Positions 1 through 63,927 of a stretch of 64,000 nucleotides of DNA are shown here, piece by piece. The stretch comes from Cohaesibacter sp. (lineage in GTDB: Bacteria; Pseudomonadota; Alphaproteobacteria; Rhizobiales; Cohaesibacteraceae): the NCBI GenBank assembly GCA_025800145.1, contig JAOXSH010000110.1:1-64000 (forward strand). Direction: 5' to 3'. The translations under genes were made by a program, and so were the position numbers. Each line of letters opens with the position of its first letter. Position 1 is the stretch's first letter. Below the pieces are notes generated by a model. That model did not search any database. It was not told the origin of the DNA and saw only the letters and a list, made by a program, of their open reading frames with translations.

Positions 1-142
1 GCACCGAAGGCCGGTTTTATTGGCTTTCTGGACTGCGTCGCTCTTGCTTTGTGGTCAACCAGACCATGGCAGCAAAAGCGTCTTACCAGAAAGCCAATAA
101 AATCCGGTCATATGGGGTAATCTTTCGTGCCGTTGGTATTAT
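1..142 (-). repeat. Family A palindromic element, cut by the window edge
   Basis: The segment has inverted arms (ggttttattggctttctgg and its complement) around a core of about 60 bases. Its right end is the family terminus taataccaacggcacgaaag, read on the minus strand. The core and right arm match the copy at 59283-59446 almost base for base in the opposite orientation. The terminus lies inside the 3' end of the integrase pseudogene. It resembles a MITE with no coding capacity. Confidence 0.8.
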
Positions 143-982
143 GTCCTGCCCACTCTTTAACGATCAGGAGTTGAACAGCTTTTTCAACGAGGCGAGACAA
201 ACAAGTATGACGAAGCATATGGATCACAAACTCCTTGCCATCTTGAAAACCGAGACGATGACGAGCACGGTTAAAATGATCTCTGTAAGTGTCCCTTGGT
301 ATCACAAAAGGCCTCTCGAACCCCTCTCTCTTTGCAAACTCTATCGCCGCTCTTGCTTTCTTTGCGAGAGGAATAGTCCATGCTTTATCATTCTTTGTAC
401 GAATGAACGTCACGCGAGTATCGCTGATTTTCAAAGCTGACCATTGGAGACTCATTGCTTCTCCAAGACGACAACCTGTGTAAAGTAGAAAGTTTGTTAG
501 GTGATAGGATAGGAGCAACCCTATATGCTTCAGGTAACCGAGAAGCTCTTTTTCTTCCGCCATAGAGAGAATACGCTCTTGGTTACCTCGTTCCTTTGAG
601 ATTGAAGAGCGCTTCCGATTGATTGTGCTTTCTGCACGATCATCCGCTCTAAATTGCTGCTCCATCTTAATGATGACTTTGGTGTCTATCTCACAGACCA
701 ACGTGTTAGGTCCGATATAGCGCATCACATGGCAATCTGTTCTCTTGCGTAGTCTTTTCGCTTTACATACGGCCAGATACTTTCGAAATACTGATCCACA
801 GAATCCCTCAAGGTGGCTTTTTGTGTTTGTGAGGGATCTGGAAGGGGAAGTCCATTAACTTCAGCCTTCCTTACTGCCTCTTCCCACGCCTCAGCTTCTT
901 GCTGTGTGGGAAAAGACTTTCTTTGTCGTTGTTTGTCATAAAGAATGTCAGCTTGCCATACCGGACCCCGCTGTCTCGCCAT
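108..982 (-). pseudogene. Tyrosine recombinase/phage integrase, frameshifted and truncated by a repeat
   Basis: The N-terminal part (start 982, preceded by gaaggag) has an arm-binding-like domain and the start of a core-binding domain ending REQIAM. The reading then shifts near 725-728, where ATGTGATG joins two frames, and continues as MRYIGPNT. The downstream part has the catalytic Arg in TGCRLGEAMSLQW, a Lys in the RTKNDKAW segment and the HMLRHT box. After VKEWAGH the protein becomes NTNGTKDYPI and stops. Those last residues are translated from the family A repeat, so the region carrying the nucleophilic tyrosine is missing. Both the frameshift and the lost tyrosine argue that it is inactive. 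The winged-helix gene lies just upstream and overlaps it, as in small phage or island integration modules. Confidence 0.8.
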
Positions 983-1400
983 TTGAAGAGTCTCCTTCGC
1001 TTTTCGCACTAAAGAGACGACGAACGAAGTTCCAGCCCTTAGGTGTCATGGACAGGGCTTTGTATCTCCGATCATATCGTCCTATTTCCACGTTGATGAA
1101 CCCCTGCCCCTTGATGGTGTTTTTTTCTTCACCAGTCTCAGGGTCAAGTTTCGTTAGACCCGGCCCCCAATAGTAGGTTTGTCGGGTTGCCGCTGAAGAG
1201 ACCACGCCAAGCATCTCTCCGAGGTCTTTTGTATTGAGTTCAGGCTTAGCTTGCTTTGAATCTTCCAGAGCGACGTAGAGGAGACCAAGGATTGTGGACA
1301 CTTGCATCCTTCCGTCTATATCCGCAAACATCTTCAACTGATCAATCAACCCGGTTAGGTCACCGCGTGAAAGCTGATCTATGTTGTGTGTTGGTGACAT
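948..1400 (-). CDS. MarR-like winged-helix protein of a phage/island remnant
   Basis: This is a protein of about 150 residues. A helix-turn-helix-like stretch (TKDLGEMLGVVSSAATRQTY, about residues 60-80) is followed by a probable wing and a C-terminal helix (TPKGWNFVRRLF). The organisation resembles a MarR/winged-helix DNA-binding protein. The start at 1400 (MSPTHNID) is preceded by aaaagg; a longer form from 1445 is possible. It overlaps the start of the integrase pseudogene by about 35 bases, so the two were probably co-transcribed. It may control integrase or lysogeny functions, but this is inferred from position only. The family is not recognised with certainty. Confidence 0.5.
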   Translation of the reverse strand: MSPTHNIDQLSRGDLTGLIDQLKMFADIDGRMQVSTILGLLYVALEDSKQAKPELNTKDLGEMLGVVSSAATRQTYYWGPGLTKLDPETGEEKNTIKGQGFINVEIGRYDRRYKALSMTPKGWNFVRRLFSAKSEGDSSNGETAGSGMAS

Positions 1401-1583
1401 AGCAAAAGTTACCTTTTCAGATAAACGAAATTTCACTCTTTGCATTTGGTAGCTACAAAGAGAACTTCCGTCTAATATATGTTCTTGTTAGTGGAGAAAT
1501 GATTGCTAAAATGAGTTTAATTTCAATTTAACAATCGTCTCTCCACAACGAAACACCATCGAATTCTAAAAGGCCTAGCAATC

Positions 1584-1710
1584 CCTGTAGACAGGAATAT
1601 ATGTTAGAGCATATTTTTCGAAAAGTGCGTGCGGTTTTCGGACAAAAATATGCTTAGAAACAAAGACTAGAGCGCATTTTGAATAACTACGTGTTTATTC
1701 AAAATGCGCT
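1584..1710. repeat. Hyphomicrobiales-type intergenic palindromes
   Basis: Two adjacent hairpins are visible. The first pairs 1608-1624 with 1635-1654 imperfectly (agcatatttttcgaaaa against ttttcggacaaaaatatgct). The second pairs 1671-1686 perfectly with 1695-1710 (16 bp, 8-base loop). The 'agagcattttttcgaaaag...ttttcgg' pattern is common between genes in Rhizobiales genomes. The second hairpin contains the stop codon of the small ORF that follows and could act as its terminator. Confidence 0.7.
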
Positions 1711-1852
1711 AGACCTTCTCTACAATATCGTATTCCGCATATAAACACTCTGAGGCATACAACTTACTAAACGCATAGTCATTGGCTTCCTGCCAAGACA
1801 TTGCATGGGTTGGATACGGTTCAATTTCAAGCGTCTCAAATCGCTCATTCAT
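1709..1852 (-). CDS. Small ORF or gene remnant, 47 residues
   Basis: The frame is open from an in-frame stop near 1890 to a TAG at 1709-1711. The first ATG gives MNERFETLEIEPYPTHAM and the peptide ends AEYDIVEKV. The composition (many aromatic and acidic residues) looks protein-like, but no clear ribosome binding site precedes it. The stop codon lies in the arm of a palindromic repeat, so this may be the remaining piece of a longer gene. No family is recognised. Confidence 0.3.
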   Translation of the reverse strand: MNERFETLEIEPYPTHAMSWQEANDYAFSKLYASECLYAEYDIVEKV

Positions 1853-1908
1853 CCAGTGGATTTTGCCAAAGACTTGAAAGACCTGAAATAATTTTTACGT
1901 CAACGCAT

Positions 1909-3195
1909 CTAGGCCAAATAAAGCGAGCGCATTTTCTTGTCGTGATACATACGGGCATCGGCCAGCGCCATCAGTGAGGCATATGTGCCATCGCCTTCAA
2001 AGAAATGCACCACGCCGATGCTGATACCAAGATCCTTGAAGCCTGCTTCTTGCAAGATTTGTTCGATTTTCGTGGTCCAATGGCGCAAATCACCGGCTTC
2101 CAAATTGCCTGCACGGGGGAAGACTTGCACAAATTCATCACCGCCCAAACGAAAGATACGATTGCCCGGCAGTTTATGCTCTCGCAAACAATGACCCAGC
2201 AGGGTCAGAGCTCTGTCCCCTTCTGCATGGCCCATCGTATCATTGAGGCGTTTGAAGCCATCGAAATCTGAGAGCATGATCACAGAATTGCGCATGGCAT
2301 GAGGATCGAACATGGACTGAACGGCTTCTGAGGTCCGCTCTCTATGCTGTTCTTCCAGACAATCATTGATGAAGCGCTCGCAGGCCCGGCGATTGCCAAG
2401 GCCGGTTACGCTATCAGTCAGGGATTCCTGTTGGGCTTTTTCGGCTTCTTCGCGGGCGTTATTGGCTTCAAAATATGGGCTATAGAGTGCCGCGATCACT
2501 TCCAGCAGGATCCCGACTTCCCAGGCGTCTTCCGGCTCGCTATGATGGCCAATCATGGCATAGCCAACACATTTTCCTGCATGATTTTTGATCGAGATGC
2601 CAATGAGATATCCCATGCCCTTATCCAGGAAGGGCTGAGGATCTGCAAAAATTTCCTGCAAATTTGCTATATGTTTCAAGCCTGAACAGGCAGAAAATTC
2701 TTGAGCCGCTTTTGTTGGGGCAAATAAGGGGGTATTCAGAAGATCGCCATCAAAGCCAAGATCAAAGACGAATTGCTTTGTCTCATGATCCAGACTGCAA
2801 ATGGCCATCCAGCGCCAGTCAACATGATTGCGCAAAGCCCTCAAGGCTGCTTGCTGGGCAGGAATATTGTCTGCGAGCTGGACCATAAAATCCTGCTGCA
2901 TGGCACGGATTTGTTCTAACTGATTGGCTTTGTTTTTACAAACCAGCACCATGTGATCTGGTAGATATGAGATGGAAATTTTCCAATTATCCAGATCAAT
3001 TTGCGGACTTTTGTCATAGCAGGCCTGCTGCCTGCATAACCGGATCAAACGGTCCAGATGTTTGGTGGGAAAGAGGACAGATTTATGATTTTGATAGACG
3101 CACAGGCCGTCCTGATCAATGACGAAGACCGCATCACTGACCTGATCAAAAATAGTATACAGACTGTCAGAGCTAGCCTTATCCGCCTTTTGCAT
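1909..3195 (-). CDS. Diguanylate cyclase with PAS/GAF-like sensory region
   Basis: The C-terminal half is a GGDEF domain (about residues 260-425) with the intact signature RLGGDEF (GGDEF at 351-355) and a LTDSVTGLGNRR start, so it should make c-di-GMP from two GTP. The inhibitory RxxD site that normally lies a few residues upstream is absent (LPGN instead), which suggests no product feedback. The first 250 residues have a short PAS-like segment (DAVFVIDQDGLCVYQN) and a GAF-like segment. A coiled linker (AREEAEKAQQ) joins the two halves. No membrane helix is seen, so it is probably cytosolic. It lies downstream of glcF on the same strand but 130 bases away, and is probably transcribed separately. 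Confidence 0.9.
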   Translation of the reverse strand: MQKADKASSDSLYTIFDQVSDAVFVIDQDGLCVYQNHKSVLFPTKHLDRLIRLCRQQACYDKSPQIDLDNWKISISYLPDHMVLVCKNKANQLEQIRAMQQDFMVQLADNIPAQQAALRALRNHVDWRWMAICSLDHETKQFVFDLGFDGDLLNTPLFAPTKAAQEFSACSGLKHIANLQEIFADPQPFLDKGMGYLIGISIKNHAGKCVGYAMIGHHSEPEDAWEVGILLEVIAALYSPYFEANNAREEAEKAQQESLTDSVTGLGNRRACERFINDCLEEQHRERTSEAVQSMFDPHAMRNSVIMLSDFDGFKRLNDTMGHAEGDRALTLLGHCLREHKLPGNRIFRLGGDEFVQVFPRAGNLEAGDLRHWTTKIEQILQEAGFKDLGISIGVVHFFEGDGTYASLMALADARMYHDKKMRSLYLA

Positions 3196-3326
3196 CCTAC
3201 CTACCCTATTGTCACGTAAAGATAGTATTGAACAAATTATCTAATATCCCCTTAAAAAATATGGCCTTTTCATTCAACCAGAAGCAGTCAAGGCGGGGCA
3301 TACCCTATGGATCATGCTTTATTTGA

Positions 3327-4682
3327 TCACTTGGAAAGCTTGGCAGGTTTTGGGCCGCCATAAGCCCAATCCAGCAATTGGATGACATGCAGAACAGGCC
3401 TTTTTGTACCGGTGCCGATCTGGGTGATGCAGCCAATATTACCAGCTGCAATGACATCTGGCTGGATTGTCTCGATATTGGCGCATTTGCGCTGTTGTAA
3501 TTTTTGCGCAAGCTCCGGCTGCATGATGTTATAGACACCGGCTGAACCGCAACATAAATGGCTTTCTGCTATGTCCCTGACAGTCAATCCGGCTTTTTTG
3601 AGCAAGCTTTTTGGTGCTGTTTTGATATGCTGACCATGTTGCAAAGAACAAGCTGCATGATAGGCCACCGATATATCCGGCAGTTTGATTGGAGAAATTG
3701 GCAGTTTGATTTCATTGAGAAATTCGCAAATGTCACGCGCCAAATTTGAGACTTTTTGTGCTTTTTCGCTCAAAAGCGGATCGTGACGAAACATATGAGC
3801 ATAATCCTTGATGCTGGTTCCACATCCTGATGTGGTGATGACAATCGCATCCAGTCCGTTGGTGTCTATTTCCCGGCACCAGACCTCAATATTGCGCTTT
3901 GCATGGCCTTTGGCTTTGTTTTCTTCCCCCATATGATGAACCAATGCGCCGCAGCAGCCCTCCCCTTCTGGCAGGACAACGTCATATCCCATACGGGTGA
4001 GCAAGCGGATGGCTGCTGCATTGATGTCACTGTCCAGAACCGGCTGGGCACAGCCGGTCAGCAGAGCCACTCTTTTTGTTTTTATGTTTGTGTTTGTGTT
4101 TTTTGGGGACTGGTCAACGCCTTTGCTGGCTGCAAAGACACCCGGCATTGTGTGCCGGGTTGGGGCTTCTATATGACGAGGGATCAGCCGCATCATGGCC
4201 GTCAGGCGCTGGCCCATTTGGCTTTTACCCGTCCCCATTTGTATGATGAGTGCAAAGGGGCGGACTATTTTTGCCAGCAAAAGAGCAAGGCGAAAACGGT
4301 CTGGATAAGGTAGGATCGTTTGCAGAAAAAACCGCATCATCTGATCCGCTTTGCCGCGCTGATGGGTTTTGGCAATATGGGTTCGGGTATAATCCACCAA
4401 ATGCCCATAATCCACCCCGGATGGGCAAGTGGTCATGCAGGATAGGCAAGACAAACAACGATCGATATGCGTCACCAATGCGCCAGTGGCAGGCTCTTGG
4501 CTTTCCAACATATGCTTGATCTGGTAAATGCGCCCACGGGGGCTGTCCAGCTCATCACCTAACAAAAGATAAGTGGGACAGGTTGCCGTGCAAAAGCCGC
4601 AATGGACGCAGGTGCGCAGTATTTTCTCCGCCTCTGCGGTGCCCTCATCTTGCAATTGCAACAGGGAAAAATTGGTTTCCAT
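3327..4682 (-). CDS. glcF: Glycolate oxidase iron-sulfur subunit GlcF
   Basis: GlcF passes electrons from the flavin subunits of glycolate oxidase to the quinone pool. Two 4Fe-4S motifs are present near the N-terminus: C25-C28-C31-C35 (CVHCGFCTATCP) and C76-C79-C82-C86 (CLSCLSCMTTCP). Two CCG domains follow, with GCAQPVLD...EGEGCCGALVHH and YHAACSLQH...SHLCCGSAG. The 451-residue length is slightly above the E. coli protein. Its ATG follows the glcE stop by one base, with a gggag site inside the glcE end, so translation is coupled. It is the last gene of glcD-glcE-glcF. Confidence 0.96.
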   Translation of the reverse strand: METNFSLLQLQDEGTAEAEKILRTCVHCGFCTATCPTYLLLGDELDSPRGRIYQIKHMLESQEPATGALVTHIDRCLSCLSCMTTCPSGVDYGHLVDYTRTHIAKTHQRGKADQMMRFFLQTILPYPDRFRLALLLAKIVRPFALIIQMGTGKSQMGQRLTAMMRLIPRHIEAPTRHTMPGVFAASKGVDQSPKNTNTNIKTKRVALLTGCAQPVLDSDINAAAIRLLTRMGYDVVLPEGEGCCGALVHHMGEENKAKGHAKRNIEVWCREIDTNGLDAIVITTSGCGTSIKDYAHMFRHDPLLSEKAQKVSNLARDICEFLNEIKLPISPIKLPDISVAYHAACSLQHGQHIKTAPKSLLKKAGLTVRDIAESHLCCGSAGVYNIMQPELAQKLQQRKCANIETIQPDVIAAGNIGCITQIGTGTKRPVLHVIQLLDWAYGGPKPAKLSK

Positions 4683-4683
4683 T

Positions 4684-5898: not shown

Positions 5899-5948
5899 GC
5901 TTTGGTCCTGACATATTGAGATGACATGCTTTTGTTCTGCTGTTTTTT

Positions 5949-7441: not shown

Positions 7442-7583
7442 GAACCTGATTTAAAAGTCTTGAGCCAGCCCTCTCCCCCTAGCAGACCACCCATCATGGT
7501 ACCCTTGGGCGGTCTGAAAAGGGGGAGAGGGCTGGATATGTCGTCTAAAAGACTCAGGCAGAGACTTTTAAATCGGGCACTTA
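7442..7583. repeat. Family B palindromic element, copy 1
   Basis: The terminal inverted repeats are cctgatttaaaagtc and gacttttaaatcgggc. Inside is a long stem (ccagccctctccccc / gggggagagggctgg) with a GC-rich centre. It matches 11282-11428, but the centre is inverted there. It separates glcD from the palindrome at 7606-7628, so it would lie in the glcDEF leader. Confidence 0.85.
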
Positions 7584-10384: not shown

Positions 10385-11284
10385 ATGATCTTCAGAGCCA
10401 TCAGTCAAAACAGAACGTCGGATGCTGTGATTGACCAAATTGAACGCCTGATCCTTGAGGGCGTGTTGCGCTCTGGCGACCAATTGCCAGCCGAGCGGGA
10501 GCTGGCAAGCAAGCTGGATGTATCTCGCCCTGTGCTGCGCACAGCACTGAAAGATCTGGAAGAACGCAATCTGATCCGCACCCAACATGGGGGGGGCACC
10601 TTTGTGGCCAATGTGGTTGGCACGGTTTTTTCTGATGAAGTGTTTGAGCTGATCCGCCGCCACCCCAAAGCCCATAGCGATTATTTTGAATTTCGTCGCG
10701 ATCTGGAAGGGGTGACAGCGGAACATGCTGCGCGCCGGGCAACGGATGCGGATAAATTGATCTTGACCCGCATTATGGACGTGATGCGCCAACATCATGC
10801 CGAAGGTGATATTCATAAGGAAAGCGAAGCGGATTTTGAATTTCATCAGGCCATTGTTGAAGCCAGTCACAATATGTTGATGCTGCATACATTGCGCTCT
10901 TGCTATAAATTGTTGGCGGAAGGCCTGTTTTATTCCCGTATTCGTTTATATGAATGGCCCGGCGTTCAGGATGCCTTGCTGGAACAGCATGAACGGCTTT
11001 ATAAAGCCATCATGGAAGGAAAACCGGATGAGGCGCGCGAGGCCGCCCGTCATCACATGGATTATGTGGAGCAGACCCTCACCCATACCAATCAGGCCGG
11101 GGTATGGGAGGAGATTTCACGTATGCGTCTGTCGCAATTGGCCGATCGCAGTGACAAGGCCAAACGAGCGAAAAAGACTTCCCATTCTGGCCGCAGCAAT
11201 ATTCGACCTCTCTCCAAAGTCAAAAGAAACCAAACGTCTGTTGTCTCCAAGCTGCATCGAGATGATAAAAAGGCAATGTCGTAA
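10385..11284 (+). CDS. GntR-family regulator, FadR/FCD subclass
   Basis: The N-terminal winged helix (about residues 8-75) has the GntR hallmark SGDQLPAERELASKLDVSRP and ends RTQHGGGTFVAN. The C-terminal FCD domain (about 95-235) carries acidic and His positions typical of metal-binding FCD proteins (DFEFHQAI, EQHERLYKAI, AARHHMDYV). A basic tail of about 60 residues extends past the domain. Regulators of this class often respond to lactate, glycolate, pyruvate or similar acids. Matching half sites upstream of this gene and of glcD point to glcDEF as a target. The TAA stop lies in the end of a family B repeat. Confidence 0.92.
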   Translation: MIFRAISQNRTSDAVIDQIERLILEGVLRSGDQLPAERELASKLDVSRPVLRTALKDLEERNLIRTQHGGGTFVANVVGTVFSDEVFELIRRHPKAHSDYFEFRRDLEGVTAEHAARRATDADKLILTRIMDVMRQHHAEGDIHKESEADFEFHQAIVEASHNMLMLHTLRSCYKLLAEGLFYSRIRLYEWPGVQDALLEQHERLYKAIMEGKPDEAREAARHHMDYVEQTLTHTNQAGVWEEISRMRLSQLADRSDKAKRAKKTSHSGRSNIRPLSKVKRNQTSVVSKLHRDDKKAMS

Positions 11285-11428
11285 GAGCCTGATTTAAAAG
11301 TCCTGAGCCAGCCTTCTCCCCCTTTTCAGACCGCCCATGAGGGTACCATAACGGGTGGTCTGCCAGGGGGAGAGGGCTGGATATACAGCATAAAAGTCTC
11401 ACTCGGAGACTTTTAAATCGGGCACTAA
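11282..11428. repeat. Family B palindromic element, copy 2, inverted core
   Basis: The element runs from taagagcctgatttaaaag to gacttttaaatcgggcacta, with the outer ends in the same orientation as at 7442-7583. The inner core (ttttcagaccgcccat...gggtggtctgcc) is the reverse complement of the copy 1 core. Its first three bases form the stop codon of the GntR gene. Confidence 0.85.
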
Positions 11429-11491: not shown

Positions 11492-12262
11492 ATGGAGCAG
11501 ATAGAGTTTGACTTTGATGAGCCGGGCCAGAAAGCCCCCCCAGCCCGCAAAAAGCGCGTCGGCCTTTTTGTCACCTGTCTGGTGGATTTGTTTCGCCCCG
11601 TTGTTGGCTTTTCTGCGGTGAAATTGCTGGAAGAGGCCGGGTTTTATGTGGATGTCCCAAAGGCCCAGAGCTGTTGCGGACAATCTGCCTGTCGCCTTGA
11701 TGATCAAAGCGTCGCAAAAGCTGAGGCCCGGCATGTGATCCGGACTTTTGAAGTCTATGATTATGTGGTCACGCTGTCTCCTTCCTGTGCCGCTGTAATT
11801 CGTCAAGACTATCCTCACCGTTTTGCCAAAGAGCCAGCTTGGTGCAACCGGGCTATGGCACTAGCTGCAAATTGTTTTGATTTGCTTGAGTTTCTTTGCG
11901 ATATCGCCAAGCCGGAGCAATTTTGCTCTTCTTTTCAAGGTTCCATTGCCTATCATGATCTTGGTCAGAAAGAGGATTGGGATTTGGCGTCTGGTAAAAT
12001 ACAGCGATTGCTCGAAGGGCTTGAAGGCATTGAGTTGAAAGAGGTTTCGAACGCCAGTGCGCTCTCGCCCAAAGCTGTTCTATCCTCTGGGGCTGGCACC
12101 ATGATATCGGATGATTTGGGGCAATTGATGGATTGGGCACGTTTGCTCAAACGTGAAGGCTCGGCCATTGAAGTACGCCATATTGCCGAAATTCTGGCCG
12201 ACATGGCAGATGGTCCCGCTATTGGTGAGCGGGCGGCTTCTTTGGCTTCTATCCGGGCATAA
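11492..12262 (+). CDS. LutA/GlpC-like CCG-domain protein with degenerate second domain
   Basis: The first half is a normal LutA-type cysteine-rich (CCG) domain: RVGLFVTCLVDLFRP (C29), AQSCCGQSAC (C61, C62, C67) and TLSPSCAA (C99). LutA is an Fe-S subunit of the LutABC lactate oxidation system and usually repeats this domain. Here the second domain keeps its outline (YHDLGQ, DDLGQLMDWARLLKREG, EVRHIAEILA) but lost all its cysteine ligands. YHDSC became YHDLG, the CCG block is missing, and DLGC became DLGQ. It therefore probably holds fewer clusters than its relatives. No lutB or lutC lies next to it. The TAA stop is formed by a family A repeat end. Confidence 0.8.
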   Translation: MEQIEFDFDEPGQKAPPARKKRVGLFVTCLVDLFRPVVGFSAVKLLEEAGFYVDVPKAQSCCGQSACRLDDQSVAKAEARHVIRTFEVYDYVVTLSPSCAAVIRQDYPHRFAKEPAWCNRAMALAANCFDLLEFLCDIAKPEQFCSSFQGSIAYHDLGQKEDWDLASGKIQRLLEGLEGIELKEVSNASALSPKAVLSSGAGTMISDDLGQLMDWARLLKREGSAIEVRHIAEILADMADGPAIGERAASLASIRA

Positions 12263-12281
12263 TACCAACGGCACGAAAGAG
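12260..12281 (+). repeat. Solo family A end at the stop of the LutA-like gene
   Basis: The sequence taataccaacggcacgaaag equals the family A terminus. The leading TAA is the stop codon of the preceding gene. The rest of the element is absent. Confidence 0.7.
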
Positions 12282-22839: not shown

Positions 22840-22917
22840 AGGACGTAATACCAACGGCATGAAAGATTACCCCATAAATCTGATGCATTTAACACTAAAT
22901 TTATGAGTTCACGTCCT
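22840..22917. repeat. Hybrid palindromic repeat (family A end plus family E end)
   Basis: aggacgt...acgtcct forms the outer ends. One side has taataccaacggcatgaaagattacccca (family A), the other ataaatctgatgcattt and atttatgagt (family E). It sits in the divergent promoter region between rsmE and the phosphatase gene. Confidence 0.7.
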
Positions 22918-22979
22918 AGTGCTTTCTTGCTATGGCATTTTTGCGCAGTCAAGCCAAGAATAAGCAGGGGATCGTCTTG

Positions 22980-23653: not shown

Positions 23654-25297
23654 ATGTCCAACTCCACCAATGCTGCTGAATTTACCGTTTCCGAAATCAG
23701 CTATGCTGTCAAATCTTCGATTGAAGATCAATTTGGCTATGTGCGGGTGCGCGGGGAATTGGGGCGGGTTTCGCGTCCGGCCTCAGGGCATATTTATCTG
23801 GATTTGAAGGATGATAAATCCGTTCTCAATGGGGTTATCTGGCGCGGGGCTGCGCAAAAAATGACGGTTCGGCCCGAACAGGGGCTGGAAGTGATTGCCA
23901 CTGGCAAATTGACGACCTTTCCCGGTCAGTCGAAATATCAGATGGTGATTGACCGCATGGAACCGGCAGGGGCCGGGGCTTTGATGGCATTGCTGGAAGA
24001 ACGCAAAAAGAAGCTGGCCTCTGAGGGCCTGTTTGCGCCAGAGCGCAAAAAAAGGCTGCCCTATCTGCCGCGGGTGATTGGGGTTGTCACCTCGCCCAGC
24101 GGGGCGGTTATTCGCGATATTTTGCATCGCGTGGCCGATCGCTTTCCGGTTCATGTTCTGGTCTGGCCTGTGCGTGTGCAAGGGGAGACTTGTGCGCAGG
24201 AAGTGGCCAATGGCATCAAAGGTTTTAATGCCTTGCCGCAAGGGGGGGGCATTCCCCGCCCTGATCTGATCATTGTGGCCCGCGGTGGTGGCAGTCTGGA
24301 AGATTTATGGGGCTTTAACGAAGAAGAGCCAGTGCGCGCTGCGGCCATGAGTGATATTCCCCTGATCTCTGCCGTTGGCCATGAAACCGATGTCACCTTG
24401 ATTGATTATGCCGCAGATTTGCGGGCGCCTACCCCGACAGGGGCAGCAGAAATGGCTTTGCCGGTCAAATCTGATTTGCTGGCAACTTTGGGCGATTTGC
24501 ATTTGCGTCAATCTGGTGCGGTGATGCGGATGATGGAGCGACGCCGCTCTGATTTGCGTTCCGCATCCCGCGCCCTGCCCCAGCCCAAGGATTTGTTGGC
24601 TTTGGCCCGGCAACGCTTTGATATGGCCTCGTCCCGGCTTGGGCAAAGTTTGCAAGCTGCAACGCTTAACCATCGCAACCGTCTGGCGACCAGTTCTGTG
24701 CGCTTGCGACCGACTTTGATTGCCAACAAAATCACTCTTCATAAAGAGCGCTTACAGGATCGTGGTGACCGCCTTACGCGGATCTCTTTGCGAGGTCTTG
24801 AGCAAAAACGCACGCAACTGGATAGCGCCACGCGCTTGATGGAGAGCCTGTCTCATAAGGGTGTGTTGGCGCGTGGCTTTGCCTTGGTGCGCAATCGCGA
24901 TGATGAGATGATCCGACAAGCTGATCAGGTTAGCGCCGGGCAAGGCCTTAGCCTTGAATTTGCTGATGGTCATGTCTCGGTGGTTGCGGGGTTACTGGAT
25001 CCGGTTGCGCTCACCCCGTCTGATAAGGACAAGCAGAGCATCGCAGCTCAACAAGAAGAAAATGTCAGCGGTATTATGGCATCCAAAGCCATTTCAGCAC
25101 AAGATATTGAGGCCAATCTGCGCTCTCTTGCCGGTGTCAAAGGGGGGGCCAAAAGCGGGAAAGAGGACAAAGGCCGCCCTTCAAAATCATCCGTCTCTGC
25201 CTCTTCCAAAGGCCAGAGCCAGCCTGAGAAACCAAAGCCAAAATCGCGCAAATCTGCGGCGCCAAAGGATGATGATGCGCAAGGCAGCTTGTTTTAG
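23654..25297 (+). CDS. xseA: Exodeoxyribonuclease VII large subunit XseA
   Basis: XseA with XseB degrades single-stranded DNA to oligonucleotides. An OB-fold domain is at the N-terminus (VRGELGRVSRPASGHIYLDL), followed by the catalytic domain with PRVIGVVTSPSGAVIRDI, RGGGSLEDLWGFNEE and SAVGHETDVTLIDYAADLRA. A long helical region and a Lys/Ser/Pro-rich tail (about 60 residues) complete the roughly 547-residue protein. The start at 23654 has a ggaag site. xseB is not adjacent. The TAG stop lies in the end of a family B repeat. Confidence 0.95.
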   Translation: MSNSTNAAEFTVSEISYAVKSSIEDQFGYVRVRGELGRVSRPASGHIYLDLKDDKSVLNGVIWRGAAQKMTVRPEQGLEVIATGKLTTFPGQSKYQMVIDRMEPAGAGALMALLEERKKKLASEGLFAPERKKRLPYLPRVIGVVTSPSGAVIRDILHRVADRFPVHVLVWPVRVQGETCAQEVANGIKGFNALPQGGGIPRPDLIIVARGGGSLEDLWGFNEEEPVRAAAMSDIPLISAVGHETDVTLIDYAADLRAPTPTGAAEMALPVKSDLLATLGDLHLRQSGAVMRMMERRRSDLRSASRALPQPKDLLALARQRFDMASSRLGQSLQAATLNHRNRLATSSVRLRPTLIANKITLHKERLQDRGDRLTRISLRGLEQKRTQLDSATRLMESLSHKGVLARGFALVRNRDDEMIRQADQVSAGQGLSLEFADGHVSVVAGLLDPVALTPSDKDKQSIAAQQEENVSGIMASKAISAQDIEANLRSLAGVKGGAKSGKEDKGRPSKSSVSASSKGQSQPEKPKPKSRKSAAPKDDDAQGSLF

Positions 25298-25343
25298 TGC
25301 CCGATTTAAAAATTTTGATGAGACTTTTAAATCAGGCTCTTAG
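25295..25343. repeat. Short family B element (ends only)
   Basis: tagtgcccgatttaaaa and gacttttaaatcaggctctta lie close together. These are both family B ends without the long inner stem. The TAG forms the xseA stop. Confidence 0.75.
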
Positions 25344-25356
25344 GCTGTAGACACAT

Positions 25357-25391
25357 AAAAAAGGCTCGCACAAGATAGCGACGAGCCTTTT
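25357..25391. terminator. Bidirectional terminator between xseA and peroxiredoxin
   Basis: aaaaaaggctcg pairs with cgagcctttt across a 13-base loop between two convergent genes. Confidence 0.8.
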
Positions 25392-25888: not shown

Positions 25889-25932
25889 AGTCTCTCCTAA
25901 TGACTTGCAGTTTTATAAAAGGATTACGGTGT

Positions 25933-26021
25933 TATACCAACGGCACGAAAGATTACCCCATATGACCGGATTTTATTGGCTTTCTGGTCATATGGGGTAA
26001 TCTTTCGTGCCGTTGGTATTA
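25933..26021. repeat. Family A element, minimal palindrome
   Basis: Two family A arms are joined tail to tail with no core, from tataccaacggcacgaaag to ctttcgtgccgttggtatta, forming one perfect hairpin of about 40 bp per side. Its right end supplies the TAA stop of the neighbouring minus-strand gene. Confidence 0.9.
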
Positions 26022-32812: not shown

Positions 32813-33129
32813 TTAGGCCGTAAACTCATAAATCTGGTGCATTTGGCGCTTAAATGGCCCGATATCACGCAAAAAAGTGTGCAGTATGGGCTGGTTGCCC
32901 ATTCAAACACTCTTTTTTGCACCTTGCCGCCCACCAACCCAAGGGGATGACAAAGCGAGAGCGTGGCCATTTAAACGTCGTACACGATATGGCTAATTTT
33001 TCTCACACGTCGTCGCAAGGATTTGAAAATGAACCACATTGTCTGCATCCTTGCTTTGAGTGGGAGAAAAAATTAGCCTCTACCAAATGCATCACATTTA
33101 TGAGTCTATGTCCTAATACCCGATTTAAG
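32813..33129. repeat. Family E inverted-repeat element of about 300 bp plus a family B end
   Basis: The outer arms match: ttaggccgtaaactcataaa at the left and, read in reverse, ttaggacatagactcataaa at the right, each continuing into gcatttgg. An inner pair (cttaaatggcc / ggccatttaaacg) is nested. The centre has short open frames without family signals. A family B end (taatacccgatttaaga) is joined at 33114-33129 and forms the M16 stop codon. It looks like a small non-autonomous mobile element between the GNAT and M16 genes. Confidence 0.7.
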
Positions 33130-37258: not shown

Positions 37259-37870
37259 ATGCCAATGCCTACCCCCATGCCACAAGAGCCAGCCGCAGCA
37301 CAATGCGATATGAGCAAGATGAACCGCTTTTGGCATGTCATGGCCCTCTATGGTGTGCCTTGTGCCTTGTTGCTTGCAGGGCTTGCCTTTCTCTCTCTTG
37401 GCATTCTTTTGGTTCAAGATGCCAAGGATGCGCGCAATTGGCCAAATGTTGACGCCAAAATTTTGTCGTCATCCATCGCGACGGTTAAACAGACCAAAGG
37501 GCGCAAAAAGACCTTTCATTATCCAAATGTGCTTTATCAATATGAGAAAGATGGCAAGCTGATCGAAGATGACCGCCTGTCCATGTCTGATATGGGATAT
37601 GCAAAAATAGCCGATGCAAAGGCCATTTTAGAGGACTATCCCAAAGGCTCGATCCATCCGGTTTATCTGGATCCTGACAATCCTTCTGTCGCCATTCTGC
37701 GACCCGGTGAGGATAGCATTGCCACTTTCGCCTTGTGGTTTGGCGTTGGCTTTCTGGTTGTTGGGATCTTTGCCTGGTGGGGATTGCCAAAGGTCGCGGC
37801 CAAGGTGCGCTTTCATGCCCATCAGCAAAGGATAGAAGCAAGACGCCAGATCTGGGGCGTAGACTCATAA
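37259..37870 (+). CDS. DUF3592 membrane protein
   Basis: This 203-residue protein has a hydrophobic helix near residues 28-52, a soluble beta-rich middle (FHYPNVLYQYEKDGKLIEDD, YPKGSIHPVYLDPDNPSVAI) and a second helix near 163-183. This is the layout of DUF3592 proteins, whose role is unknown. The N-terminus is Pro/Met-rich (MPMPTPMPQEPA). The gene stands alone. Its last residues, GVDS, and the TAA stop come from a family E repeat end, so the native C-terminus may have been slightly longer. Confidence 0.8.
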   Translation: MPMPTPMPQEPAAAQCDMSKMNRFWHVMALYGVPCALLLAGLAFLSLGILLVQDAKDARNWPNVDAKILSSSIATVKQTKGRKKTFHYPNVLYQYEKDGKLIEDDRLSMSDMGYAKIADAKAILEDYPKGSIHPVYLDPDNPSVAILRPGEDSIATFALWFGVGFLVVGIFAWWGLPKVAAKVRFHAHQQRIEARRQIWGVDS

Positions 37871-37875
37871 ATCTG
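37856..37875 (+). repeat. Solo family E end at the DUF3592 stop
   Basis: ggcgtagactcataaatctg contains the core tagactcataaatctg also found at 39169-39184 and at the ends of the large element at 32813. It supplies the TAA stop. Confidence 0.7.
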
Positions 37876-57809: not shown

Positions 57810-57869
57810 TCTTGCAACCAAAAGCCCGACTGACGCGGGCTTTTGTTTGACGCATTTTGGTGATCCTCA

Positions 57870-58508: not shown

Positions 58509-58520
58509 ATTCTTTCCTCT

Positions 58521-58690
58521 CACGGCTATCCCTCGTTAGCACTCGGGCCTGCGAGGGCGCGCAGACAAGCTGCGATCACCTAGCGGTTCACGCATACGAA
58601 AAATCGTATGCGATTCTTTTATACTGCACATATTGCAATCTATCACGGCTACCCTCGTTAGCACTCGGGCCTGCGAGGGCGCGCAAACAA
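58521..58690. repeat. Family C direct repeats, two copies
   Basis: cacggctatccctcgttagc with actcgggcctgcgagggcgc (58521-58567) is repeated at 58644-58690 with few changes. Each copy can fold through cctcg...cgagg. A perfect hairpin (cgcatacga / tcgtatgcg, 58591-58612) lies between. The repeats fill the gap between the two related membrane-protein genes. Confidence 0.85.
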
Positions 58691-58729
58691 TGTGGTTGCT
58701 TAGCATTTAAGATTGCAAATTGTTTCGCT

Positions 58730-59242
58730 TTAGCTGGGGTCTGATTGGTGTTTTTGCAAGCATTCCAGCATTTGGCGTTTGCACATCAAGGCGTCATCTT
58801 CATCATCGAACAACCCGATTGTCATCATGACACGATCCTGATTGTCTTTCAATTGCAGGGAGATACCGCCCTGTTCGGAAAATTCCGGTTTTACCGGCTC
58901 CATTGCATCAATTTTTAAAAACGCAATTGTGAAGGGGCGCGAGCGCCCGAAAAGCGAGGCGGTATAATGGCGTACATCCTGTTTGTCGAAATCAATTTCC
59001 GTTTCTTTTGACCAGCCCATAATGGCCTGGCTTAATCCGGTATAGGCAAGGCCCAATGAAATGAAGGCGATGAACATGGACAGGATGAGCAAAAGTGTGC
59101 TGTCCCCTTCCCATTTCGGACCCAAAAGCAAGCCAAGCGCGATTGCTAACATGAGGATGCCGATCAAGGCTTTGCGCAGTCTTATCGCGGATGTCAATTG
59201 ATTGCGCAGGGTGCGGATGGTTGCAGATTTGGCCTTACCCAT
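58730..59242 (-). CDS. Two-helix membrane protein, likely paralog of the 57870 gene
   Basis: This 170-residue protein starts MGKAKSATIRTLRNQLTSAI, has two helices (about 24-42 and 48-70), then a soluble domain (TEIDFDKQDVRHYTASLFGR, IAFLKIDAMEPVKP, GLFDDEDDALMCKRQMLECL). The layout, including the acidic 'DDEDDA' helix near the end, parallels the SEEEAQKV helix of the neighbouring protein. The family is not recognised. It lacks the terminal Cys clusters of its partner. A family A repeat lies upstream. Confidence 0.7.
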   Translation of the reverse strand: MGKAKSATIRTLRNQLTSAIRLRKALIGILMLAIALGLLLGPKWEGDSTLLLILSMFIAFISLGLAYTGLSQAIMGWSKETEIDFDKQDVRHYTASLFGRSRPFTIAFLKIDAMEPVKPEFSEQGGISLQLKDNQDRVMMTIGLFDDEDDALMCKRQMLECLQKHQSDPS

Positions 59243-59282
59243 TCTTTTCTCAGTTCCCGATCAGGTTCAAACGAGCGCCTTG

Positions 59283-59446
59283 TAATACCAACGGCACGAA
59301 AGATTACCCCATATGACCGGATTTTATTGGCTTTCTGGTAAGACGCTTTTGCTGCCATGGTCTGGTTGACCATAAAGCAAGAGCGACGCAGTCCAGGAAG
59401 CCATTTCAAAGCATCCTATGGGTCAATCTTTTATGCCGTTGGTATA
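59283..59446. repeat. Family A element, full copy
   Basis: The left arm taataccaacggcacgaaag continues to ggctttctgg, then a core of about 60 bases and a right end reading, in reverse, taccaacggcataaaagat. It is the best full copy in the window. Its right end encodes the last residues (TNGIKD) and TGA stop of dgkA. Confidence 0.88.
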
Positions 59447-59782
59447 AAAGACCCATGCACTATAAAGCGTCATCATGGCGAGGCCACAAAAAACTGCAAA
59501 AGAGCCCAAATCCTTGGCCTGTCTCGCAAATTCGGCAAAATCCATGGTCAGATGATCAACCAACACTTCAATGGCGGTATTGAGCGCTTCCAGTCCCAAG
59601 ATCAGCAGGAAAAAGAAGGTCAGGAGTGCAAAGTCCAGCAGGGTTGCCCCGACCCATCCATATCCGATCAGCAAAGCGCCATAGAGAATAACTTCCGCTT
59701 GCGCAGCTGTTTCCTGCATCAGTCTTTTGAAACCACCAAAGGAATAGAGGGTGGCTTTCAAACTGTGGCGAATATGTTCCAT
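59423..59782 (-). CDS. dgkA: Diacylglycerol kinase
   Basis: This integral-membrane enzyme recycles diacylglycerol by phosphorylation. It has 119 residues with three helices. The family signature is seen in LEALNTAIEVLVDHLTMDF with EYA-like FAEFARQAKDLGSFAVF. It is typical of the small prokaryotic DgkA family. The start at 59782 (MEHIRHSLKA) has an aaagg site. The last six residues, TNGIKD, and the stop come from a family A repeat end. They follow the end of the last helix, so the enzyme is probably active. Confidence 0.93.
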   Translation of the reverse strand: MEHIRHSLKATLYSFGGFKRLMQETAAQAEVILYGALLIGYGWVGATLLDFALLTFFFLLILGLEALNTAIEVLVDHLTMDFAEFARQAKDLGSFAVFCGLAMMTLYSAWVFYTNGIKD

Positions 59783-59862
59783 AGCCTTTGGCCTTTTTTT
59801 CTGCAATCACGCTATGGTTTGAGCAGCTTTGTATGACGCTGGCATGTCGTAAAATCCTGAGC

Positions 59863-61839
59863 CTAAGCTCTACCAAATAAACGTTCAATATCGCTTAGTT
59901 TCAACTCGACATAAGTGGGGCGGCCATGGTTGCATTGGCCCGAATGGGGCGTGGCTTCCATTTCGCGCAGTAGTGCGTCCATTTCTTCGGCCCGCATGCG
60001 ACGGCCTGAGCGCACAGAGCCGTGACAGGCCATGGTGGCGGCGACATGGTGGATTTTTTCTTCCACTCTTGTGGCTTTATCCCATTCTGCCAAATCATCG
60101 GCAATGTCGCGCACCAACCGGTCCAGATTGGGTTTGCCCAAAATGGCCGGTGTTTCGCGCACAGCCACGGCACCGGGGCCAAAGGCCTCAAGGCTCAGAC
60201 CCAGAGCTTGCAGCTCTTCTTTTGCCTCGTCCAGTCTGGCAACATCCTCTTCTTCCATTTCCACGATATGGGGGATGAGCAGACCTTGCCGTGCGATGCC
60301 CTTTTGCGCAATGGCTTTTTTGAGCCGCTCATAGACCAGTCGTTCATGGGCGGCATGTTGATCGACAATGACCAAGCCATCTTCGGTTTGGGCGATGATG
60401 TAATTTTCATGAATTTGGGCCCGCGCCGCTCCCAAAGGCCGGGAGAGCCTGGCTTCTTGCAAAGGAATATCCCCTGCTCTTGCATCGGCGCTGGGGATCG
60501 AGACATCTGCCATGCGGCCTTGCTGCTCTGGCCGCTGTATGGATGCCTGTATTGCCCCCTCTTCTGGCAGAGCTGAGGCTGGTGCCGATTGAGCATCTGT
60601 TAAATTGTTATAAGGACCGGCCTGTTCCTGTGCGCCTTTCTCTGTTTGGACTGCCTCACTTTGCGGTGCATAGGGGGAGTGTCGCCATTCCCAGTCTTGA
60701 GGATGGGCCGGAGCTGCGCTTTGGGGTGCGAAGGGGGCTTTTTGCTGTCTGGTAGCGGCCTGCGTGTTGCGCATACCATCGGGCCGTAAAGCGGCCAGCG
60801 TTGCTTCGCCGCCTGTTGTGGTAGCGCGGTGCCCTGCTTCCATCAGTGCATGGCGAATGGCCCCGACCACCAGTCCGCGCACATGCTGGGGATCGCGAAA
60901 GCGCACATCGGCTTTGGTTGGGTGGACATTGACATCCACCTGATGGGGATCGAGATCCAGAAACAGCACCACGCATGGATAGCGATTGCCAGCCAGAAAA
61001 TCGACATAAGCGCCACGAATGGCCCCCAATATGGTTTTGTCCTTTACCGGACGACCATTGACAAAGATGAATTGCTGCAAGCTGTTGGCGCGGTTCAAGG
61101 TTGGCAGGCCTGCAAAGCCGGTCAGGCGGACCTCATCACGGATGGCGTCAATTTCCACCGCATTGTCGCGAAAGGCTTTGCCCATGACTTGCCCCATGCG
61201 CACCAAATGGGCGTCTTCGCCTTTACAGGCGGCATAATCAAGGCGAGAGCGGTCAGCGCCGGTCAAGGTGAAGCGAATATGGGGATGCGCCAATGCAATG
61301 CGCTTGATGATCTCGGAAATGGCGGTATTTTCTGCCCGATCTGTTTTGAGAAATTTCAGCCGCGCTGGCGTGGAAAAGAACAGATCTTCAACCTCAATGC
61401 GGGTGCCTTTGCTCAGAGCAGCGGGTTTGATCTCACCTTTTCTGCCCCCTTTTATCTCAATCTCCCAAGCGTGCGGCTCGCTTTGGTGGCGGGTGGTGAT
61501 GCCGAGCTTGGCAATTGACCCGATTGAGGGAAGCGCCTCTCCGCGAAATCCAAGATGGCGAATATCCATCAAATCATCAGGATCCAGTTTCGAAGTGCAG
61601 TGGCGCTGAATGGCCAGAGCCAAATCGCGCTGTGTCATGCCTATGCCATCATCTGTGATACGGATCAGATTTTTGCCACCGCCTGCGGTGATGATTTCGA
61701 TACGGCTGGCGCCTGCATCAATGGCATTTTCCACCAGCTCCTTGACCACAGAGGCCGGGCGTTCGACCACTTCACCAGCGGCGATTTTATTGATGGTGGC
61801 ATCGTCCAGTTGGCGAATGATTGTTGGCGTCTCTGTCAT
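59863..61839 (-). CDS. mutL: DNA mismatch repair protein MutL
   Basis: MutL links mismatch recognition by MutS to strand removal. The GHKL ATPase motifs are seen in [27 protein letters not shown] and [15 protein letters not shown]. The C-terminal domain has the endonuclease motif [14 protein letters not shown] and ends [20 protein letters not shown]. The length of 658 residues includes a long Gln/Pro-rich linker. The DQHAxxExxxE motif suggests a MutH-independent nicking activity. A strong aaagg site precedes the ATG. Confidence 0.97.
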
Positions 61840-61965
61840 ATCGGCCTTTAATGTGACACTTGCATTGAACCGGTCTGTTGCGATCAGTGACTATCACTTT
61901 GATCGCAACAAGAAGGGCTAGAGTGCCACATGGCACGCTTTGCAAGCAACAAGCCGGCGACTTTT

Positions 61966-62064
61966 TCAACTATTGAGCAGCACAATCATCACTATACAGG
62001 AAAGTAGCAGGGAAATGCGGCTGGAAATATCAAGGCCCAGTAAAAAGACGCGATGGTTTTTCAT
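61966..62064 (-). CDS. Small membrane peptide, 32 residues
   Basis: The frame reads MKNHRVFLLGLDISSRIS and then LLLSCIVMIVLLNS. A very good site (aggag, 8 bases before the ATG) precedes it. The basic N-terminus and one hydrophobic helix suggest an inner-membrane peptide. It lies between the terminator of the porin gene and mutL, on the same strand. No family is recognised. It is too short for most gene finders. Confidence 0.5.
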   Translation of the reverse strand: MKNHRVFLLGLDISSRISLLLSCIVMIVLLNS

Positions 62065-62111
62065 AATCGATTCTCCTGTCTGTCTATTGATAAAATGTGC
62101 ATGCTGCCCCC

Positions 62112-62162
62112 GGCGCCTGATCTCGTCTGTAGCGGTTGCAGGTCTTTTCGAGATCAGGCGCC
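62112..62162 (-). terminator. Terminator-like hairpin after the outer-membrane protein gene
   Basis: ggcgcctgatctcg pairs perfectly with cgagatcaggcgcc across 23 bases. It lies about 30 bases beyond the stop codon of the porin-like gene. No strong T-run is present. Confidence 0.6.
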
Positions 62163-62189
62163 AGCGACGTCCCCACTAGATTATAGGCA

Positions 62190-62870
62190 CTAGAATTTAT
62201 AAGAGATCCCGACCATTAGCTGGTGCGATCCAGCGGTATTTTTGAAAGTGGTTCCACTGAAATTGTAAGATTTGTTATGCAACCCTTTAGCTGTGTAATC
62301 TGCGCGGATATTGACCCTGTCATTGAGGGCATATTCCACGCCGCCCCCAAGGGTCAGACTGGCCATATTGGATTTCTTTTTCTGTCCCTTGGCGATCAGA
62401 TGGTAATCTCCAACCTCCAGACCCAAACTGACATAAGGCATGAAACGATCAACGGGCAGGCCGATGCGCCCCTTTAGGCCTGTGCTCCAGTTTGTCTTGC
62501 TGGTCACCGTACCAAGAGAGCCGATGGTGGCGCTTTTTTTGAACCTGTTGGATTTGATATCCGCTTCAAGACCAAAGATGACGCCTGCCATTTGCCAATT
62601 GTAACCGGCATACAGCCCCCCATTCAGACCCCCAGCTGTCACTGTCTTCTTGGTTTTGCCTGATTTTGTTTGGCTGACTAACAATCCTGCTCCCAATTGG
62701 GCCCCCACATAAGGGCCATACCAACTGAATTTGGGTTTGGGGCCTTTAACAGAATAGAGACCATCCAGCTTTGGAAGGTCTGAAGCAAGGGCAGGATTTA
62801 CTGCGAGAAGGCCTGTCAGCGCGAGCAGAGGCAGTAAGCTTTTCTTGATCATTAGAAATATGGGTTTCAT
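62190..62870 (-). CDS. Outer-membrane beta-barrel protein, Omp25/OmpA-like
   Basis: This 226-residue protein starts with a signal peptide (cleavage after ALA, about residue 29). The remainder is an eight-strand-type barrel: SWYGPYVGAQLGAGLLVSQT, GGLNGGLYAGYNWQMAGVIF, FMPYVSLGLEVGDYHLIAKG and YALNDRVNIRADYTAKGL. It ends ISYKF with the C-terminal Phe needed for outer-membrane assembly. It belongs to the Rhizobiales Omp25/Omp31-type porin family. An aggac site precedes the ATG. An AT-rich dyad lies upstream. Confidence 0.9.
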   Translation of the reverse strand: MKPIFLMIKKSLLPLLALTGLLAVNPALASDLPKLDGLYSVKGPKPKFSWYGPYVGAQLGAGLLVSQTKSGKTKKTVTAGGLNGGLYAGYNWQMAGVIFGLEADIKSNRFKKSATIGSLGTVTSKTNWSTGLKGRIGLPVDRFMPYVSLGLEVGDYHLIAKGQKKKSNMASLTLGGGVEYALNDRVNIRADYTAKGLHNKSYNFSGTTFKNTAGSHQLMVGISYKF

Positions 62871-62924
62871 CAGTCTGTCCTATTGGCATGGTTGAGCGGC
62901 AAGGTCATAGTTCAAGAAGCTTTT

Positions 62925-62961
62925 CGATAATAAATTAATTCAAATAATATATTTATTATCG
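62925..62961. promoter_or_regulatory. AT-rich dyad in the divergent porin/DUF2975 promoter
   Basis: cgataataaat and atttattatcg are perfect 11-base inverted arms 15 bases apart. The gataat hexamers recall Fur-type boxes. The Xre-type regulator at 63709 is another possible binder. Confidence 0.4.
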
Positions 62962-63117
62962 TTTTACATTAATTTTTAAATCCTATATATTTGTTGAAAA
63001 GTCAAGGGCCGTCATAATATTTTTTCAAAAAGCCCCCTTGCTTCGCCTATCGGGCTTGGGGCATGAAAGAGAAAGCCAGACAGACACTTTTTGTCGTCAG
63101 CAAACAGGTCAGAGAAA

Positions 63118-63696
63118 ATGATCGATAAAATTCAATCAGATGTCCCTATTCGCCATCGCAAGATCATGCGTGTCAGTCAAATTATGAAATGGTTTCTGAG
63201 CTTATGTCTCATTCTGCTCGTCTTGATTGCCTCTCTGATAACGGTTGAGCTTTTTGGTCTGGATCCGTTCGATGTTGGCGCCAATATGGTTGACTATGGC
63301 GAGATTGAGCGGAGCTATAATGACTTGCCAAAACTCCAGCAAATCGGCCTTGTGATCAGTGAATTGGTGATATTGGGTGCCATTATTTTTATCGTCTGGG
63401 ACATGCGCAAATTGTTTTGTGCCTTTCAAAGGCTGGATTTTTTCTCTCCCAAAACGCTTTCAAATATCCTGAATACGGGCATTCACTTTCTCATTTTCGC
63501 CATTCTGGATCTGACCGAAGAGCCCATTCATTCTGTGTTGTCGACACTGGATCTGGGTGAAGGCAATATAGTTCTCAATATCGAAATTGAGGGGGGTGAA
63601 ATCTTCTTTTTGATTTTTGGCGCTCTTTTTGTCACGCTTGCCTGGGTGCTTCGCGAAGCGGCCCTGATTCAAAAAGAAAATGACCAGTTCGTTTAG
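63118..63696 (+). CDS. DUF2975 membrane protein
   Basis: This protein of about 192 residues has four predicted helices: LSLCLILLVLIASLITVELF, IGLVISELVILGAIIFIVWD, ILNTGIHFLIFAIL and EIFFLIFGALFVTLAWVLRE. CAFQRLDFFSPKTLSNILNT and LREAALIQKENDQFV at the end are typical of DUF2975. In many bacteria this gene is paired with a small Xre-type regulator, as here, 13 bases downstream. The function is unknown; the pair probably forms a small membrane-linked regulatory module. Confidence 0.85.
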   Translation: MIDKIQSDVPIRHRKIMRVSQIMKWFLSLCLILLVLIASLITVELFGLDPFDVGANMVDYGEIERSYNDLPKLQQIGLVISELVILGAIIFIVWDMRKLFCAFQRLDFFSPKTLSNILNTGIHFLIFAILDLTEEPIHSVLSTLDLGEGNIVLNIEIEGGEIFFLIFGALFVTLAWVLREAALIQKENDQFV

Positions 63697-63708
63697 GAGG
63701 GCGTGATC

Positions 63709-63927
63709 ATGGCCATCATGATTGAACTGGATGTGATGCTTGCGCGGCGTAAAATGAAGTCCAAAGCCCTGTCCGAATTGATTGGCATTTCCGAACAGAA
63801 TGTCTCTTTACTGAAATCAGGCAAAGTCAAGGGTGTGCGGTTTGAAACCCTGAACAAGATTTGCGAAGTTCTGGACTGTCAGCCGGGCGATATTCTGATC
63901 TATCAGCCGGATGAGGAAGACGGTTAA
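63709..63927 (+). CDS. YozG-type Cro/C1 (Xre) transcriptional regulator
   Basis: This 72-residue protein consists of a helix-turn-helix (KALSELIGISEQNVSLLKSG and RFETLNKICEVLDCQPGDIL). The KxLSELIGIS...CEVLDCQPGDIL pattern is the YozG group that accompanies DUF2975 genes. The ATG at 63709 has a perfect ggagg site. A GTG two codons earlier is too close to it. It probably represses the pair. Its TAA stop lies in the family A end that begins at 63925. Confidence 0.93.
   Translation: MAIMIELDVMLARRKMKSKALSELIGISEQNVSLLKSGKVKGVRFETLNKICEVLDCQPGDILIYQPDEEDG

Follow-up and report, generated by a model that had tools for sequence, protein, structure and literature searches.

We analysed a stretch of 64,000 nucleotides (the window; positions 1-64,000 of the 64,217-nt contig C13) from the draft genome of a Cohaesibacter sp. 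(3.44 Mb in 161 contigs), in which several protein genes end at or inside short palindromic repeats of three families, here called A, B and E. Five genes meet a repeat exactly at the stop codon: a GntR/FCD gene, a LutA-like gene, xseA, a DsbD-like gene and an Xre-like gene (Table 1). The original prediction had listed nine such genes and had taken the repeat ends as the source of their stop codons. The position was exact for these five and not for the other four, and the idea that the repeats supply stops was mostly wrong. Where the repeat begins directly behind the stop, the whole stop is the duplicated target of the insertion; where it begins one base earlier, the repeat returns the third base only. 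We suggest that the repeats are small mobile elements that probably landed in stop codons that were already there.

The four other genes show that the list combined two kinds of insertion, those on the stop codon itself and those shortly before it, which alter the protein tail. A phage-type integrase, dgkA and a DUF3592 gene do have their stops within a repeat, but they read 31, 22 and 16 nt into it, because in these genes the repeat entered the last part of the coding sequence. The A end meets the integrase at position 138. The Pfam match of this protein (108-728) ends at profile position 158 of 172, near the start of the A-encoded tail; the end of the domain may have been lost. When the flanks of the dgkA element were joined, the native end read ..FYKALV* instead of the present ..FYTNGIKD*, so that a Tyr codon and not the stop was the target. 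The M16 peptidase does not end in a repeat, and the sequence around its stop resembles a B remnant by eye. A small open reading frame (ORF) at 1709, proposed as a tenth case, does carry TAG at the edge of a palindrome; however, this palindrome belongs to a further family, F, and the ORF is only a candidate of 47 aa.

Relatives show what some of these stops looked like without the repeat. In the close congener G005, the GntR/FCD gene has the same end position and TAA with the repeat absent, and the LutA-like orthologue ends ..SIRP TAG, also without a repeat. The xseA protein has its five best matches in named genomes within Cohaesibacter (95-63% identity). Two of its orthologues (L227 and L228) end ..QGSLF TAG, with no B there. 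The stop in L227 (from 4639) carries an E-like end, a short B lies on the same TTA in the window (25295-25360), and L228, from a more distant Cohaesibacter, has none of these repeats there. Taken together, this suggests two successive insertions at the xseA stop, first of an E-like element and then of B.

Table 1. Repeats and affected gene ends in the window
Feature	Position	Strand	Remark
GntR/FCD gene, TAA stop	11282..11284	+	equals left 3-bp target duplication of B
B element, 141 bp, inverted ends	11285..11425		right target duplication TAA at 11426-11428
LutA-like gene (CCG domain), TAA stop	12260..12262	+	at A end
Remnant of A end, 18 nt	12263..12280	+	
xseA, TAG stop	25295..25297	+	TA from target TTA, G from B
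Short B element, 43 bp	25297..25339		target duplication TTA; at apparent older E end
Short palindromic A element, 84 bp	25935..26018		target duplications 25932-25934 and 26019-26021 (TTA; TAA on minus)
DsbD-like gene (DsbD_N domain), TAA stop	26019..26021	-	equals target duplication of A
Xre-like gene (HTH_26), TAA stop	63925..63927	+	boundary base A where A family has T
A end leaving the window	63927..64000	+	
A element, 159 bp, in 3' end of dgkA	59286..59444		tail ..FYTNGIKD* element-derived
A copy carrying integrase stop	21..138	-	TGA at 110-108; ORF 108-728
E element, 298 bp	32816..33113		M16 peptidase stop (33125-33127, minus) 11 nt outside
Decayed E end	37855..37875	+	DUF3592 gene (stop 37868-37870) reads 16 nt into it
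B element, 139 bp, target TTA	7442..7580		not at a stop codon
A end nested in E element	22849..22916		A at 22849, E end at 22916 (region 22841-22919); not at a stop codon
Family F palindrome, CTAG-like target	1671..1710		47-aa minus-strand candidate ORF ends TAG at its edge

The repeats were counted in a sample of 80 stretches and the window, which make up 35 contig pieces of 1,638,834 bp (48% of the genome). Our own simple gene finder called 1,338 genes there (82% coding); it overlooks foreign-looking genes such as the integrase. With end patterns that were likewise our own and simple, we found 327 repeat ends (150 of A, 122 of B and 55 of E). We took d as the distance of the first repeat base from the end of the closest stop codon on the same strand. 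As many as 49 of the 327 ends lay at d = 0 or -1, and all three families contributed, as had been claimed (A 22/150, B 15/122, E 12/55). Other distances within 60 nt held at most five ends (A at -22) and elsewhere no more than two. Two further palindromic families, F and G, which have CTAG-like targets and are flanked mostly by CTA, added 12 ends at d = -1 (5 of 71 and 7 of 41, respectively).

The families differ in the phase in which they meet the stop. A was found 21 times at d = 0 and once at -1, B nine times at 0 and six times at -1, and E only at -1 (12 ends). There were 20 A insertions on 537 in-frame TAA stops and a single one on 210 TTA sites one base upstream, compared to seven and six for B. 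At d = -1 the first repeat base was G in all six B cases and G or A in the twelve E cases. The A family begins with T, and its sole case at this distance, the Xre-like gene, has A instead. For paired repeats, joining the flanks retained the stop in six of the seven cases at d = -1; at d = 0 this outcome is automatic. In the five A cases at d = -22 the tail reads ..TNGxKD and differs from the native tail in all five, as judged from joined flanks or from a relative; in two of these cases the triplets on the two sides of the repeat are not the same.

In their ends, target duplications, copy number, empty sites and size, A, B and E are short repeats of the type of miniature inverted-repeat transposable elements (MITEs). 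Genome-wide, 376 A, 199 B and 84 E end motifs were found, compared to 8, 0 and 0 for reversed-pattern controls. The terminal inverted repeats cover 32 nt at 84% in A, 34 nt at 85% in E and 16 nt at 94% in B, and element sizes among the listed pairs range from 43 to 321 bp. In the sample, the triplet before the repeat was TNA at 145 of 150 A ends and 104 of 122 B ends, and the triplets on the two sides matched exactly for 18 of the 26 pairs of A ends and 24 of the 36 pairs of B ends, which indicates a 3-bp TNA target duplication. E ends were preceded by TA in 46 of 55 cases, mostly as YTA, and 3 bp were common to both sides in one of 12 E pairs; a single clean empty site in a relative gave a duplication of 2 bp (TA). 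When flanks were compared with the empty sites of the relative, they overlapped by 3-4 nt at seven A/B sites, by 9 nt at an eighth, and by 2 nt at the sole E site whose flanks could be joined. A duplication of TA alone in all families was considered and dropped once the 3-bp TNA duplications appeared. Apart from this, the first 350 nt of the 35 contig pieces hold 13 A, 4 B and 2 E ends; breaks in the assembly thus tend to fall at the repeats.

The most direct evidence for native stops came from the relatives. Orthologues, taken from G005 and, for xseA, from L227, were available for 28 of 60 sites examined. At 24 of 25 boundary sites the gene of the relative has its end in the same place; by eye, the relative lacks the repeat at 21 of these 25 sites (11/11 A, 5/8 B, 5/6 E). 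The occupied sites in the relative comprise two B sites with a B end, xseA with its E-like end and one E site with an E-like start. The original prediction had offered insertion into TA-containing stops with little harm to the protein as an explanation, and this was borne out. It had also set down relatives with the same C-termini and no repeat as evidence against itself. Such relatives were found; they refute the donation of stops by the repeats but support insertion into pre-existing stops. For A insertions inside genes, the tails differ in all three cases with an orthologue. In one further instance, a single A insertion seems to be split over two contig ends (C32:74 and C34:163). It would lie between two convergent genes that overlap and that adjoin uninterrupted in the relative (L258); one gene keeps its TAA and the other gains a TNGTKD tail.

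The proposed mechanism is simple. Insertion of A and B takes place at TNA and duplicates three bases, and that of E duplicates TA. This makes stop codons natural targets, since TAA and TGA fit TNA and TAA and TAG fit TAR. An in-frame insertion at TNA would duplicate the whole stop, and the gene would keep it (d = 0). An insertion one base upstream, at TTA or TA alone, would leave TA, and a repeat end starting with G or A would complete TAG or TAA (d = -1); A cannot restore a stop in this way because it begins with T, and apart from the Xre-like case its insertion in this phase yields the ..TNGxKD tail and d = -22. An insertion in the codons just before the stop would give a short tail encoded by the repeat, such as ..TNGxKD* in the case of A. 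Most insertions in genes and promoters would be purged by selection, and stops would be over-represented among the survivors because neither protein nor promoter is harmed there. We consider it probable that A, B and E, as well as F and G, are short non-autonomous inverted-repeat transposons landing in native stops and that selection is the main cause of their excess at stops. The positions, duplications, empty sites and unchanged protein ends were observed, as was the enrichment; we infer that the repeats were moved by a transposase.

The size of the excess depends on the DNA chosen for comparison. The expectation tests covered ends that are preceded by TNA or TA and lie outside genes and away from piece edges. 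Against random intergenic TNA or TA sites, the excess at stops was about 3- to 8-fold: 21 observed vs 4.8 expected for A (P = 1.4e-8), 9 vs 3.3 for B at d = 0 only (P = 0.006) and 12 vs 1.4 for E (P = 1e-8). The enrichment over random intergenic insertion that the original prediction expected was thus present. We then weighted the expectation by the core and four flanking bases, learned from non-stop insertions, with the 24 second ends of stop-hit elements excluded. The excess was still seen in A (21 vs 6.8), B (15 vs 5.7), E (12 vs 2.9) and G (7 vs 2.1), and the pooled value was 60 vs 21.4, or 2.8-fold.

The neighbourhood of the sites also matters. Its splits used ends flanked by genes on both sides, which leaves 57 of the 60 stop hits, and the intergenic gaps were measured with the repeats still in place. 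The ratio of observed to expected insertions was 0.49 in divergent gaps and 0.98 on the start side of codirectional gaps. On the 3' side of codirectional gaps it was 1.37 within 1-40 nt and 0.62 beyond 40 nt, and in convergent gaps 1.38 within 1-40 nt and 1.95 beyond. It reached 2.43 at codirectional and 3.77 at convergent stops. Compared to the most insertion-tolerant, convergent intergenic DNA, the excess at stops is about 1.5- to 2-fold. We read stops as the safest targets of all classes; target motif and selection would explain most of the stop excess.

Several findings weigh against this explanation. At sites 1-30 nt downstream of stops, 21 insertions were observed vs 17.1 expected, and the stops exceed them (P = 0.0005). 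The same holds for stops against convergent sites beyond 40 nt from a stop (P = 0.03, or P = 0.09 with partner ends counted as intergenic) and for convergent stops against the intergenic sites of convergent gaps (P = 0.004), although these are several tests, with some classes chosen after seeing the data. Selection and the 4-nt motif thus do not explain the whole excess. The weighted excess of F, 5 vs 4.0, is not significant (P = 0.37). Among the 25 boundary sites, one relative has a protein that is one residue longer, and the seventh paired case at d = -1, a B, is a truncation. Pairing was restricted to ends less than 450 bp apart; of the 253 elements, 179 are known from a single end without a recognised partner (98 in A, 50 in B and 31 in E). 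No intact DDE_Tnp_1 transposase with matching ends was found among the 16 DDE_Tnp_1 matches in the genome, the one transposase family searched.

The first three of these findings are what would be expected if the transposition machinery picked stops beyond TNA or TA, by a wider sequence, by DNA structure or by a coupling to the termination of transcription or translation. The excess over 3' neighbours did persist when the 24 second ends were kept (pooled 60 vs 23.3; P = 0.001) and under a 20-nt context model (60 vs 22.3; P = 0.0007). Moreover, the share of ends at stops shows no age trend between exact and diverged ends (A 10/72 vs 11/60, B 2/20 vs 13/78, E 5/19 vs 7/24). However, the smallness of the excess over tolerant DNA and the absence of a significant excess in F speak against such a choice, and intergenic DNA may be less neutral than assumed, given terminators and the start of the next gene. 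The residual of about 1.5- to 2-fold means either this or that stops are favoured as targets. Some active preference for stops is possible, but as the explanation of the pattern we regard it as rather unlikely. The broader idea that unrelated TA- or TNA-targeting elements actively favour stops, for example through termination coupling, with the stop as a dedicated safe harbour for bacterial MITEs, also seems unlikely to us.

We consider it quite improbable that the insertions generally truncate or extend genes and end the protein with a stop of the repeat itself. This does describe the integrase, dgkA and the DUF3592 gene in the window, the three in-gene A cases with an orthologue, five paired in-gene cases and the one B case at d = -1. 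At the boundary sites, in contrast, the relatives keep the same protein ends, and an in-frame duplication of TAA or TGA can copy only a stop that already existed. As a general rule, donation is refuted by the relatives' protein ends and by the joined flanks, and it applies to a minority of cases.

The original prediction also proposed that the repeats act as transcript ends, and retention at gene ends as transcription terminators or RNA-processing sites would fit their palindromic form and their over-representation at stops and in convergent gaps. In crude scans, however, terminator-like sites overlapped none of the four repeats scanned. In the relative, three sites (0, 1 and 10) show, by eye, a hairpin and a T run 3' of the stop, within flanking DNA that aligns with what follows the repeat here. 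On the four-repeat scan and the relative's own hairpins we reject this function as the cause and hold it very improbable. Chance or a gene-calling artefact has a negligible probability: the gene finder is simple and 4 of the 49 boundary genes score below 20 in it, but the ends of orthologues and the P-values of the enrichment refute it.

Returning to the repeats as non-autonomous transposons landing in native stops, we looked for a partner transposase. One of the 16 matches, on C106 (L194 1351-1982; L194/L206), is a broken DDE_Tnp_1 ORF enclosed by two A-like ends; the whole measures 632 bp and is flanked by TTA on each side. Five of 18 positions are mismatched at each of these ends, and the element is a candidate remnant of the partner of A. 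No candidate with B ends occurred among the 16 matches, and a 960-bp interval between two A ends on C35 held no transposase-like ORF, by eye, in its sampled part. Remnants of A ends, about 14-17 nt long, stand directly before transposase-like sequence at three places (L204 and L205 at 1449, L198 at 288), and the following sequence is identical in two of them. The end sequences of interest for a partner are TACCAACGGC.. and G(T/A)GCCYGATTTAAAAGTC.

A ends with up to two mismatches numbered 295 in the genome itself, five in G005 and none in the other 16 genomes of the genus that were searched, and neither A nor B had a match in the plasmids searched. In another congener (G010), A-like ends, mostly flanked by TNA, were read at nine of the ten regions fetched. 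One abuts the in-frame TAA of a 44-aa ORF, whereas one called gene end reads 22 nt in and another 52 nt; these are too few for a test. The A-like elements of this congener (L292-L300; TACCAACGAGGGG..) are diverged, and weaker matches occur in a genome from another family of the order (G043; L142, L148).

A 3-bp TNA or TWA target duplication characterizes the IS1031-type group of the IS5 family and the eukaryotic PIF/Harbinger-Tourist MITEs. By their 3-bp TNA duplication, A and B resemble the IS5/IS1031 group, and the broken DDE_Tnp_1 ORF between A-like ends on C106 may be a further link for A; the kinship is a candidate one. RUP and Correia elements are smaller than 200 bp and have inverted ends, mostly with terminal TA, target duplications and high copy number, and RUP has been linked to the transposase of IS630-Spn1 (PMC2229807). 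The repeats described here share the small size, inverted ends, terminal TA, target duplications and high copy number, but A and B differ in the 3-bp TNA duplication, some copies reach 321 bp, and only a broken DDE_Tnp_1 candidate was seen.

The closest printed parallel that we found is BOX of Streptococcus pneumoniae. There, 58 coding sequences overlap a BOX; in 36 of them it lies at the very 3' end and encodes the stop, and there was no strong evidence that these sequences are truncated (PMC3049150). Like A, B and E, BOX elements are small mobile repeats at gene ends; the parallel is functional and was drawn without comparing sequences. Unlike in our case, the sections of that paper drawn on here mention neither a stop rebuilt by a target duplication nor tests of empty sites at stops or of enrichment (PMC3049150). 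QMITE2 of Coxiella burnetii lies mainly in 3' untranslated and intergenic DNA, and one in-frame copy extends a protein at its C-terminus (PMC5896051), which resembles the TNGxKD tails of A. It differs from A, B and E in its duplications of 7-11 nt, and no targeting of stop codons is described in the sections consulted (PMC5896051). Judging the literature by titles and the starts of abstracts, we recognised no published description of stops rebuilt by duplication in bacteria. Beyond BOX, the present analysis adds the stop rebuilt by a duplication or by the first base of the repeat, the phase behaviour of each family, the empty sites and a motif-weighted test.

The finding comes down to a simple rule: a TNA duplication, or TA followed by an end that starts with a purine, can occupy TAA, TGA or TAG without change to the protein. 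This rule predicts which families can occupy which stop phase, and it offers an explanation for repeats said to encode stops in other genomes. For annotators, it means that a repeat at the C-terminus is usually no truncation. Whether such elements target stops actively or are found there through selection becomes a testable question.

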